Source of the DNA: Myxococcales bacterium
GTDB taxonomy: Bacteria; Myxococcota; Myxococcia; Myxococcales; JAKAPL01
NCBI GenBank assembly: GCA_021783235.1
Contig: JAJXUD010000004.1
Span: 1-64,000 of the forward strand
Direction: 5' to 3'
DNA length: 64,000 nucleotides
The notes beneath the pieces are model-generated. The model worked only from the letters and a program-made list of their open reading frames with translations. It was not told the DNA's origin and did no database searches. The position numbers and the translations under genes are program-made. Positions 4,014 through 62,059 of this stretch are shown here, one piece after another; position 1 is the first letter of the stretch, and every line of letters starts with the position of its first letter.

Positions 4014-4382
4014 ATGGCAACCGCGAATGAACTGCGACAGATGTCGGCCGAGGAGCTCGGGAGGATGGCGGGAGAGCTACGCCAGAACCTCTTCGACCTT
4101 GGGCTGAAGCACCGCACCGGGCACCTCGAGAACAGCGCGCAGCTCGGCCGCACGCGGCGCGAGCTCGCCCGCCTCTTGACCTTGGTTCGCGAGAGCGAGC
4201 TCGGGATCGGCCGCGCGGTCAAGGCGGAGGAGCCGAAGGGAGCGAAGAAGGCCGCCGCGGCGAAGAAGGGTGGCGAGTCCGAGGGCGAGGCGGAGAAGGC
4301 GGCAGGGAAGAAGCGGGGGGCGCCAAAGGCGAAGGCCGAGAAGGCGGCGGCGAAGGGCAAGGCCAAGAAGGCCAAGGAATAA
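4014..4382 (+). CDS. rpmC: 50S ribosomal protein L29 with Lys/Ala-rich extension
   Basis: L29 is a small helical-hairpin protein beside L23 at the tunnel exit. Residues 1-65 are a normal L29 (ELRQMSAEELGRMAGELRQ, then LARLLTLVRESE). The protein is 122 residues, almost twice the usual 60-70, because residues after about 70 form a Lys/Ala/Glu-rich tail (repeated KAKAEKAAAKGKAKK type). The tail is low complexity and could extend from the ribosome surface or touch rRNA; its role is unknown. Confidence 0.94.
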   Translation: MATANELRQMSAEELGRMAGELRQNLFDLGLKHRTGHLENSAQLGRTRRELARLLTLVRESELGIGRAVKAEEPKGAKKAAAAKKGGESEGEAEKAAGKKRGAPKAKAEKAAAKGKAKKAKE

Positions 4383-34029: not shown

Positions 34030-35571
34030 ATGGACGAGAAACTCTCCTTCGACGAAGCCGCGCTCGCGCTCGAGGCCCGCGTGAGGCGAGGCGGCGCCGA
34101 GCGCTACCACCAGAAGAACAGGGAGCAGGGCAAGCTCTTCGCCCGCGAGCGGATCGATCGGCTCCTCGACCCGGGCAGCTTCGTCGAGGAGGCGCTGCTC
34201 GCGAACGCGCTCGACCCCGAGCTTCCCGCGGACGGCGTCGTCACCGGGCTCGGCCGCGTCGAGGGGCGGCCCGTCGCGGTGATGGCGAACGACTCGACCG
34301 TGAAGGCCGGCTCGTGGGGCAAGCGGACCGTCGAGAAGATCCTCCGCATCCAGGAGACGGCCGCGAGGATGCGAGTGCCGCTCTTCTACCTGGTCGACTC
34401 GGCGGGGGCGCGCATCACCGACCAGGTGGAGATGTTCCCGGGCCGGCGCGGCGCGGGGCGGATCTTCTTCAACGAGGTGGGGCTGTCGGGCTCCGTGCCG
34501 CAGATCTGCCTGCTCTTCGGCCCCTCGGCGGCGGGCGGCGCCTACATTCCGGCCTTCTGCGACATCGTCGTGATGGTCGAGGGCAACGCCTCGATGTACC
34601 TCGGCTCGCCCCGCATGGCCGAGATGGTCATCGGCGAGAAGGTGACGCTCGAGGAGATGGGCGGCGCCCGGATGCACTGCTCGGTCTCGGGCTGCGGCGA
34701 CTTCCTCGTGAAGACCGAGGAGGAGGCGCTCGCCCTCGGCCGCCGCTGGCTCTCCTACTTCCCGCAGAGCTTCGCCGATGCGCCGCCGCGCACGGCGCCG
34801 CGGCCGCCGGCCCGCTCGGGCAAGAGCGTCGACGAGATCCTGCCGGCCGACCAGAACAGGCCGTTCGACATGAAGGCGCTCGTGCGCGAGCTCGTCGACG
34901 AGGGGAGCCTCGTCGAGGTCAAGGAGCTCTTCGCGGGCGAGATCCTCACCCTGCTCGCGCGCATCGACGGCCGCCCGGTGGGCATCGTCGCGAACCAGCC
35001 GAAGGTGAAGGGCGGGGTGCTCTTCGTCGAATCGGCCGACAAGGCCGCCCGCTTCATCTGGCTCTGCGACGCCTTCAACATCCCGCTCGTCTACCTCGCG
35101 GACGTGCCCGGCTTCATGATCGGCACCAAGGTGGAGCGGGCGGGCATCATCCGCGCCGGCGCCAAGATGATCCACGCGGTCTCCGAGGCCACCGTGCCGC
35201 GGATCTCGGTGGTCGTCCGCAAGGCCTACGGCGCGGGGCTCTACGCCATGAGCGGGCCGGGCTTCGCGCCCGACTGCACGCTGGCCCTGCCCCAGGCGAT
35301 GATCGCGGTGATGGGGCCCGAGGCGGCGGTGAACGCCGTCTTCTTCAACAAGATCCAGGAGAAGCCCGAGGCCGAGCGGGCCGCCTTCGTGGCCAAGCTG
35401 CGCGAGGAGTACCGGGCGGACATCGACGTGGACAAGCTCGCGAGCGAGCTCGTCGTCGACGCGGTGGTGCCGGGCAGCCGGCTGCGCGACGAGCTCGTCG
35501 CGCGGATCGCGCTCTACTCCGAGCGCTACGAGCCGCCGAAGCGCAAGAAGCGCGGCGTCACCCCGGTCTGA
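34030..35571 (+). CDS. Acyl-CoA carboxylase carboxyltransferase (beta) subunit
   Basis: This subunit moves CO2 from carboxybiotin to an acyl-CoA. The 513 residues include RERIDRLLDPGSFVEE, the oxyanion-forming segments DSAGARITDQ and FGPSAAGGAYIPAFCD in the N-terminal crotonase-like half, and DVPGFMIGTKVERAGIIRAG in the C-terminal half. HMG-CoA lyase and methylglutaconyl-CoA hydratase next to it suggest 3-methylcrotonyl-CoA; propionyl-CoA is an alternative. The biotin-carrying carboxylase partner, usually in the same operon, is not in this window. Confidence 0.9.
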   Translation: MDEKLSFDEAALALEARVRRGGAERYHQKNREQGKLFARERIDRLLDPGSFVEEALLANALDPELPADGVVTGLGRVEGRPVAVMANDSTVKAGSWGKRTVEKILRIQETAARMRVPLFYLVDSAGARITDQVEMFPGRRGAGRIFFNEVGLSGSVPQICLLFGPSAAGGAYIPAFCDIVVMVEGNASMYLGSPRMAEMVIGEKVTLEEMGGARMHCSVSGCGDFLVKTEEEALALGRRWLSYFPQSFADAPPRTAPRPPARSGKSVDEILPADQNRPFDMKALVRELVDEGSLVEVKELFAGEILTLLARIDGRPVGIVANQPKVKGGVLFVESADKAARFIWLCDAFNIPLVYLADVPGFMIGTKVERAGIIRAGAKMIHAVSEATVPRISVVVRKAYGAGLYAMSGPGFAPDCTLALPQAMIAVMGPEAAVNAVFFNKIQEKPEAERAAFVAKLREEYRADIDVDKLASELVVDAVVPGSRLRDELVARIALYSERYEPPKRKKRGVTPV

Positions 35572-35643
35572 GAGGGCGTGAACGGGGGGGCGACGGCCGC
35601 GCGGGTCGCGCGGGGCCGAGCCAGCGTCGCGAGCGGGCGAGCG

Positions 35644-35874
35644 ACGATGATCGGCGGGCCGAAGACGATGATCGGCTGGCCGAAGAAGATGATCGACGGC
35701 CGTGCCACGATGATCGGCGGGCTGGAGACGATGATCGGCGGCCGTGCCACGATGATCGACGGCTGTGCCACGATGATCGGCGGCCGTGCCACGATGATCG
35801 ACCGGCCAGTGACGATGATCGACCGGCCGGAGACGATGATCGGCCGGCCAGCGACGCTGATCGGCGGCCGCGCG
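35644..35874. repeat. 21-bp tandem repeat, 11 copies
   Basis: Eleven uninterrupted 21-bp units with consensus ACGATGATCGGCGGCCGTGC plus a final C fill 35644-35874; the fifth and seventh units are identical. Nine units contain the dyad CGATGATCG, so these sites recur every 21 bp, two DNA turns. All six frames stay open because the unit is a multiple of three, giving heptapeptides such as TMIGGRA on one strand. The array lies between convergent genes in the 407-bp gap 35572-35978, the only gap above 300 bp; nothing else was recognised there apart from two GCGATCGC palindromes just after the array. Confidence 0.93.
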
Positions 35875-35978
35875 GCGATCGCATGCACCCCGACGAGGGC
35901 GTCGGGCGGCCCCGCGTGGCTCGAAGGCGGGCCCGCGATCGCGCTGCGCGGCCGCGGGAGGGTCGACGGTCGGCGAGG

Positions 35979-36149
35979 CTACCGGAACGGCCACCAGGCG
36001 GGGCGCTGGCGGGCGGGCGGCTGGACGCCGGTCTCCCGGCAGCGGCAGCGCTCCGACTCGGGGACGCCGCGCATCACGGCGTCGACGTGGGCGCCGCAGC
36101 CGGACCAGCTGACCTTGCCGCACGAGCGGCACTTGACGCGAGAGCACAT
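35979..36149 (-). CDS. Small zinc-ribbon-like conserved protein
   Basis: This 56-residue protein starts at ATG 36149 with AGGAGA upstream. It contains CRSCGKVSWSGCGAHVDAVM followed by GVP and RCRC. Cys at 7, 10, 18, 35 and 37 plus H21 make a compact metal-binding protein likely. I recall similar small hypothetical proteins (C-x2-CGK-x-W-x-GCG-x-H) in many bacteria but cannot name a function. It is the last of a leftward group with fmdB and DUF302, and its 3' end faces the 21-bp repeat array. Confidence 0.8.
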   Translation of the reverse strand: MCSRVKCRSCGKVSWSGCGAHVDAVMRGVPESERCRCRETGVQPPARQRPAWWPFR

Positions 36150-36221: not shown

Positions 36222-36428
36222 TCAGGTGAAGCGGCCCGAGCCGCCGCAACCGCCGCCGCCGCCTCCGGCCTCGGCCGAGCCGCCGAGCGCCGCCGGCGCC
36301 GACATCAGCCTTCGGACTCGCCGCTCGTCGCAGGCGGGGCAGGAGAGCTCGCCCTCCTCCTCGGGGTGGCGGATCAGCGCCTCGAACGTCCGTCCGCAGC
36401 GCTCGCATTCGAATTCACGCAGTGGCAT
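36222..36428 (-). CDS. FmdB family zinc-ribbon protein
   Basis: The 68-residue protein has the FmdB-type ribbon: MPLREFECERCGRTFEALI, then CPAC about 18 residues later, and RRLMSAPAA. It ends in a Gly-rich tail with an extra Cys (CGGSGRFT), which is also common in the family. FmdB proteins are putative regulators of unknown mechanism. ATG 36428 has GAGGAA upstream. Confidence 0.88.
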   Translation of the reverse strand: MPLREFECERCGRTFEALIRHPEEEGELSCPACDERRVRRLMSAPAALGGSAEAGGGGGGCGGSGRFT

Positions 36429-61222: not shown

Positions 61223-62059
61223 CTAACGCCGCCCGCCGCCACCTCGACCGCCTCCGAAGTGCCCGCCTCCGAAGTGGCCTCCGCCGCCCCGCACGGGGCC
61301 GACATTGTGACCGCCGCGTACCGGGCCGACCCCATGGTAGCCGGCGCCGCCGCGAAAGCCTCCTCCGCGCCAGCCGCCGCCCCAACCTCCTCCGCGGCCC
61401 CAACCCCCGCCGCGCCAGCCTCCGCCCCAACCCCCGCCGCGCCAGCCTCCGCCCCAACCCCCGCCACGCCAGCCTCCGCCCCAACCTCCGCCGCGCCAGC
61501 CGCCGGCCCAGCCGCCGCGCCAACCGCCGTAGCCTCCCCGCCAGCCCCAACCCCAGGGATGATAGCCCCAGCCCCCCCAGCCCATCCCCATGCCCCAGTA
61601 GCGGTTCGGCCAAAACGCATAGTGCGCGTAGGGCCACGTCGCTCCATAGACCCAAGGGGCCACGACCCAGGACCAGCCGTAGGTGGGGTAATAGACGTAG
61701 GTGTAGGGGTAGGGCTGGTCCTGAGGGTAATAGGTGTACTGCTTGCCGGCTGGCGCCCAGACCCAGCCGTACTGCTGGGTGTAGACCCACTGACCGCCCG
61801 CCTGCCCCTGCGCCGGCCCCTCGGGGCCGGCTTGGGCCGCTCCGCCGGGTCCCTGGGCTTGGTTATCGGCCTGCGGGCCCTCGGCGGGCGGTGGAGGTTC
61901 CGCAGGAGGCTCCGGGGGGAGCTGCGCGGGCGGTGGGGTCGATGGCCTGACTTGAGCCGTCGAGGCGCCCGGAGCAGAGGCCTCTTGAGCGGCCGCTGGA
62001 ACCGCTGAGCCGGCGGCGGCCAGCAATGCGCCGAGCAATCCCGCGAGTCGGATCCTCAT
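61223..62059 (-). CDS. Secreted Gly/Trp/Arg-rich protein with 9-residue repeats
   Basis: The 278-residue protein has a signal peptide (AGLLGALLAAAGSAVPAAAQ), a Pro-rich stretch at 29-62 and an aromatic domain at about 90-150 (WVYTQQYGWVWAPAG, YPTYGWSWVVAPWVYG). From 175 on it is almost only Gly, Trp and Arg; residues 188-231 (61367-61498) repeat GGGWGGGWR. ATG 62059 follows GAGG. Proteins with this YGWxWAP-type domain occur in myxobacterial envelopes, but the function is unknown. Confidence 0.8.
   Translation of the reverse strand: MRIRLAGLLGALLAAAGSAVPAAAQEASAPGASTAQVRPSTPPPAQLPPEPPAEPPPPAEGPQADNQAQGPGGAAQAGPEGPAQGQAGGQWVYTQQYGWVWAPAGKQYTYYPQDQPYPYTYVYYPTYGWSWVVAPWVYGATWPYAHYAFWPNRYWGMGMGWGGWGYHPWGWGWRGGYGGWRGGWAGGWRGGGWGGGWRGGGWGGGWRGGGWGGGWRGGGWGRGGGWGGGWRGGGFRGGAGYHGVGPVRGGHNVGPVRGGGGHFGGGHFGGGRGGGGRR

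Follow-up and report, generated by a model that had tools for sequence, protein, structure and literature searches.

A 21-bp intergenic tandem array of a Myxococcales bacterium that possibly belongs to a class of non-coding, self-complementary minisatellites specific to its lineage

I propose that the array of 21-bp units described here belongs to a class of minisatellites that are specific to its lineage, non-coding, and self-complementary, that have 21 bp as their base period, and whose step would come from a duplication process. I would give this proposal as a whole an even chance of being right. The arrays in question have a common length and mostly unrelated sequences, are non-coding and self-complementary, and are absent from the sampled controls; the present array bears the marks of block duplication. 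The unit length of an intergenic tandem repeat is generally regarded as arbitrary, and no description of 21-bp-locked intergenic arrays was found in the open-access literature. If the proposal is true, a unit length tied to the helix, and neither to codons nor to a sequence motif, allows a direct test of whether repeat length is set by the duplication machinery or by DNA-binding architecture, and a conserved flank beside arrays of different sequence provides a handle on the mechanism.

Structure of the array and its surroundings

The window, which is the whole analysed stretch, comprises the first 64,000 bp of contig C22 in the genome named G000 here (4.58 Mb, 133 contigs). As shown in Table 1, the array is built of contiguous units of exactly 21 bp each. 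Tandem Repeats Finder (TRF) reports a period of 21 with 11.8 copies (35633-35879, score 232) and a 63-bp higher-order row (score 269). The best lag is 21, with an identity of 0.80 over 210 bp, while 500 shuffles reach 0.46 at most. Thus, unit alignment, TRF, and lag identity all bear out the initial annotation, in which eleven contiguous units of constant length had been described, nine of them keeping the dyad; the exceptions are units 3 and 11. The units differ from one another at up to 9 of 21 bases, and the variation lies mainly in the linker, where it takes the form of recurring subtypes. Since units 5 and 7 are identical, blocks have probably been duplicated in place, and this suggests turnover of the array.

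The left neighbour lies on the plus strand and the small genes from 35979 onward lie on the minus strand; the array site is therefore convergent, as had been annotated. The 56-aa Cys-rich protein has no match in Pfam or NCBIfam. Two further repeats were seen in the window. Ribosomal protein L29 (4041-4382) carries a repeated Lys/Ala/Glu-rich C-terminal extension made of 45-bp repeats (4219-4362), and a predicted gene without a Pfam match (61223-62059) holds a Pro/Ala-rich 27-bp coding repeat (61397-61518).

Table 1. Features at and around the array (window positions) and loci of the 26-bp flank
Feature	Position	Strand	Evidence
Acyl-CoA carboxylase carboxyltransferase (Carboxyl_trans), left neighbour	34030..35571	+	Pfam PF01039, E 5.5e-159
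Degenerate left edge, counted into the array by TRF	35633..35643	.	TRF
21-bp array, 11 units, consensus ACGATGATCGgCgGgCnnGcg	35644..35874	.	Unit comparison, TRF
CGATGATCG dyad of unit 1; recurs every 21 bp, intact in 9/11 units	35645..35653	.	
Unit 3, dyad broken (AGATGATCG)	35686..35706	.	
Units 5-7, RCGGCYGTGCC linker subtype; 5 = 7, sign of in-situ block duplication	35728..35790	.	
Units 8-10, CCGGCC linker subtype	35791..35853	.	
Unit 11, dyad broken (CGCTGATCG)	35854..35874	.	
56-aa Cys-rich small protein, right neighbour, convergent with left gene	35979..36149	-	
FmdB-family zinc ribbon protein	36222..36428	-	PF09723; TIGR02605
GGAACAGGTCAATACATCCCTGACAC flank loci	G000: L158, L160, L161, L162, L163; G003: L159		

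The dyad and its distribution

Is the dyad itself a conserved signal? A dyad as good as CGATGATCG is present in 27% of shuffled units (p 0.27), and it is nothing remarkable in itself. Dyad pairs at the spacing of the window array occur at no other place in the genome. The same search gave only isolated two-site matches, in 4 of 144 other genomes of the order, and only two records in a genome-contig collection; the dyad was thus rejected as a conserved motif. A genome search for further arrays of the same unit, which the initial annotation had suggested, returned a single place, on contig C71 (72% identity over 85 bp), and no second array of the unit. At this C71 locus, two adjacent 21-bp arrays with different units lie likewise between convergent genes. 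The 1.5 kb that follow the carboxyltransferase orthologue were scanned in 18 other genomes, and neither a 21-bp nor a 42-bp array was detected there.

It had been proposed that dyads spaced by two helical turns form a protein-binding array. The two parts of this idea fared differently. The dyad as a binding site is weakened because the genome has no other dyad pairs at this spacing, the only DNA match is the one on C71, and no array was detected at the 18 orthologous loci. The significance of the 21-bp spacing is strengthened because dozens of arrays whose sequences are unrelated have it too.

A common period among non-coding arrays

I sampled 852 kb of the own genome and about 1 Mb of relatives, calling genes with a purpose-built codon-usage model and scanning lags of 8-100 bp. 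The sample has a mild bias, as contigs C34, C47, and C89 came into it through their matches, and the ungapped detector favours indel-free arrays. In the own family (G000, G001, and G002), 22 of the 23 non-coding arrays with periods between 15 and 70 have a period of exactly 21 or 42, the exception being 15; calls outside this range have periods of 9, 12, 76, 85, and 90. The autocorrelation of the intergenic DNA of G000 has peaks at 21, 42, 63, and 84 (z about 8-10) and is flat at 20, 22, 41, and 43. Several of the arrays were confirmed by TRF.

Over all sampled genomes, the periods of 50 non-coding arrays cohere with a repeat of 10.3-10.6 bp (vector strength 0.67), in tests that treat the arrays as independent although about five unit pairs are related. 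The coding arrays of the same sample are all multiples of 3 (110/110) and lack coherence at 10.5 bp (vector strength 0.02). Other families add periods of 41 and 63. Outside the own family, the helical coherence is lower (22 arrays, p about 0.001, with the 41-bp arrays of 20+21 and two REP-like 51-bp arrays counted). When 43 arrays were compared, only about five unit pairs were clearly above the shuffled null. At the C71 locus, the unit sequence changes while the register of the lattice stays the same. The arrays occur between convergent, divergent, and co-directional gene pairs; thus, the convergent placement that had been thought to suit a boundary element is not a rule.

Extrapolation from the sample gives roughly 60-90 arrays of the class per genome. 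Two sets of controls yielded no non-coding arrays: 240 kb from G006, G008, G013, and G014, which belong to the same order, and 474 kb from other bacteria, made up of E. coli and plasmid sequence, of which the E. coli stretch was poorly gene-called and yet had no arrays of either kind. All genomes with arrays are fragmented assemblies, and some arrays lie at or near contig ends (L058:1-385, L095, L106, L110, and L111). It might be asked whether the arrays are an artefact of assembly, such as a k-mer loop of 21. I regard this as very improbable: the units carry many point differences, periods of 41, 42, and 63 occur too, the class is present in several genera and families, and the equally fragmented G006 and G014 are free of arrays in 60 kb each. 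Rather, the arrays at contig ends are probably places where assembly breaks, so that their length and number come out too low, and more arrays may exist than were counted.

In L111 and L117, both of G001, and in L154:8270-8740 (G004), the left and right halves of the array carry one motif in opposite orientation, which makes the array as a whole a large inverted repeat on the 21-bp lattice.

Coding capacity, folding, and transcription

All frames of the window array had been described as open, and a heptapeptide repeat, TMIGGRA or IIVARPP on the other strand, had been considered. In fact, one plus-strand frame, reading CGA TGA TCG, has a TGA in every unit and 12 stops in all. The other five of the six frames are open through the array, which is what speaks for translation. 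The variation has no codon-phase bias (p 0.77), the gene caller places no gene at the array, the translated repeat has no family match of note, and the 41-bp periods of class members would break the frame. The heptapeptide was rejected on these grounds, and a coding function is scarcely credible. A concentration of variation in one codon position (p<0.05) was found in only two of the tested arrays, one of which, L095, shares part of its length with a weak gene call.

Since plain shuffles overstate the folding of arrays, a null was used that permutes unit columns and keeps the repeat structure. It does not preserve dinucleotides, so that absolute z values are approximate and the comparison between classes is what counts. 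Under this null, the mean z is -1.94 for 35 non-coding arrays and +0.26 for coding arrays (p 1e-9). Ordinary intergenic DNA is itself partly self-complementary (mean z -1.21), and the arrays differ from it with only p 0.009.

Once transcribed, the arrays might form rod-like folds by which convergent transcripts are terminated or protected. The position of the window array between convergent genes would fit such a role, and the array folds better than plain shuffles (z -3.8), but this excess falls to z -1.6 when the repeat structure is kept in the null. Moreover, many arrays lie between divergent genes, and neither a terminator- or promoter-like site nor an Rfam match was found, so that a terminator, a promoter, and an Rfam RNA were each rejected. 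Such RNA rods seem to me distinctly improbable.

Flanking sequences and mobile elements

I found that a 26-bp sequence, GGAACAGGTCAATACATCCCTGACAC, occurs in five copies in the genome (with at most 1 mismatch) and that 5/5 copies lie directly beside 21- or 42-bp arrays. These five arrays have at least four different units, those of L079 and L086 being related. A copy with 3 mismatches in G003, which belongs to another family, also adjoins a 42-bp array; a search of further genomes gave no copy of the flank. A second flank of about 150 bp (87% identical) is shared by L065:3855-3990 and L095:681-840, on contigs C71 and C34 of the own genome, next to arrays with unrelated units.

The 26-bp flank may be a leader or the end of a mobile element. 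An insertion-sequence end was rejected as its source; a 42-base query gave only an 18-base plasmid match. It is conceivable that the arrays are composites linked to mobile elements, in which an array is nucleated or captured by a short conserved end, here the 26-bp flank, in the way of REP/BIME elements or HUH transposon ends. The regular abutment of the flank on arrays of mostly different units, its recurrence in another family, and the second flank common to the C71 and C34 arrays are consistent with this. However, most arrays lack the 26-bp flank, the window array has neither flank, and no transposase was recognised beside the flanks. The search for Y1 (RAYT) transposases in the genome gave one weak match to PF01797 (E 5e-5), and similar matches, few in number, are present in genomes where no arrays were seen. 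A RAYT/REP explanation was set aside as unlikely, since the Y1 matches in the sampled genomes show no correspondence with arrays, and the mobile-element reading in its general form is improbable in my estimate.

A dispersed REP-like palindrome, CCCGGACACTNACGTGTCCGGCTCC, was seen in G010 (L139, L141, L142, L171, L174, and L175), often in opposed pairs about 50 bp apart, as in REPINs. The two 51-bp arrays of G010 are tandem copies of this palindrome and were set apart as a separate class.

Source of the two-turn step

How would arrays of unrelated sequence come to share a step? Each array would arise where local intergenic DNA is duplicated in tandem, two helical turns at a time, and would then grow and homogenise in place by slippage or unequal exchange. 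Such growth from local DNA would make the unit sequence private to the locus and the step length common. The most likely determinant of the step would be the duplication machinery or the pairing of self-complementary segments along the helix, and not recognition of CGATGATCG by a protein. Against this account, neither an enzyme nor a mechanism that duplicates DNA in steps of 21 bp was identified, and ordinary intergenic DNA is itself partly self-complementary. The conserved 26-bp flank at five arrays (and at one in another family), whose units are mostly different, is not readily explained by neutral duplication.

Alternatively, a nucleoid protein, a topoisomerase, or a partition-like protein might bind one face of the helix every two turns, selection keeping the spacing while the sequence drifts. 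The clustering of periods at whole helical turns agrees with this, as does the register held across the change of unit at the C71 locus; the 41-bp arrays (20+21) break the multiple-of-three rule and keep the phase. A purine signal at 10.5 bp (z 3.1) points the same way, but it is one of 30 tests. No A+T periodicity of the kind that suggests bending was detected in the arrays, and curved DNA from phased A+T was rejected accordingly. The arrays also have no motif in common, are found whatever the orientation of the adjacent genes, and lack conservation at orthologous loci. I take selection by such a protein to be possible but rather unlikely. The duplication process is favoured as the source of the step, at about half of the total probability, because there is no common motif or A+T phase and no conservation by locus.

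A broader and unlikely idea is that the arrays form a class of chromosomal elements in which only the two-turn lattice and the self-complementarity are conserved, some with the 26-bp sequence as a leader-like boundary, and that they are formed or maintained by a dedicated system which reads the helical spacing and not the sequence.

Comparison with known repeat systems

The window array, analysed in one genome of its species, works like the bacterial minisatellites (VNTRs) and is best filed with them. With its head-to-tail units (11 x 21 bp, TRF score 232), it shares with minisatellites the short non-coding units, the locus-private sequence, and the signs of in-situ block duplication. It differs in that one unit length (21 and its multiples) is common to nearly all non-coding arrays of the lineage and that these are self-complementary. 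Coding tandem repeats are a poor model, as the array has no codon-phase pattern and no gene around it.

The tandem repeats of Borg elements are found genome-wide, in coding and intergenic positions, with units mostly unique to each locus (PMC9879509). The arrays of the present lineage are likewise genome-wide and locus-private. However, Borg repeats are perfect and A-rich, and just 14-38% of their intergenic unit lengths are divisible by three (PMC9879509), while the arrays studied here are diverged, as seen in the units of the window array, G+C-rich, and locked to 21/42.

REP, BIME, and REPIN sequences with their RAYTs are also extragenic, bear palindromes, and are sometimes in tandem. In contrast to the present units, which are mostly private to a locus, REPs come as one family, or a few families, of high-copy sequences; the window unit is not dispersed, occurring at one place apart from the single partial match on C71. 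In CRISPR arrays, unique spacers would be expected, whereas here the whole 21-bp unit repeats and the linkers fall into few recurring subtypes. Iterons, too, are tandem units of about two helical turns. Arrays of the iteron or parS type keep one recognised sequence, while those of this lineage vary in sequence from array to array; the window unit was found to form no further array in its own genome or in the 144 other genomes of the order, apart from the isolated two-site matches. By the features tested, the window array is not a REP/BIME, CRISPR, or iteron array.
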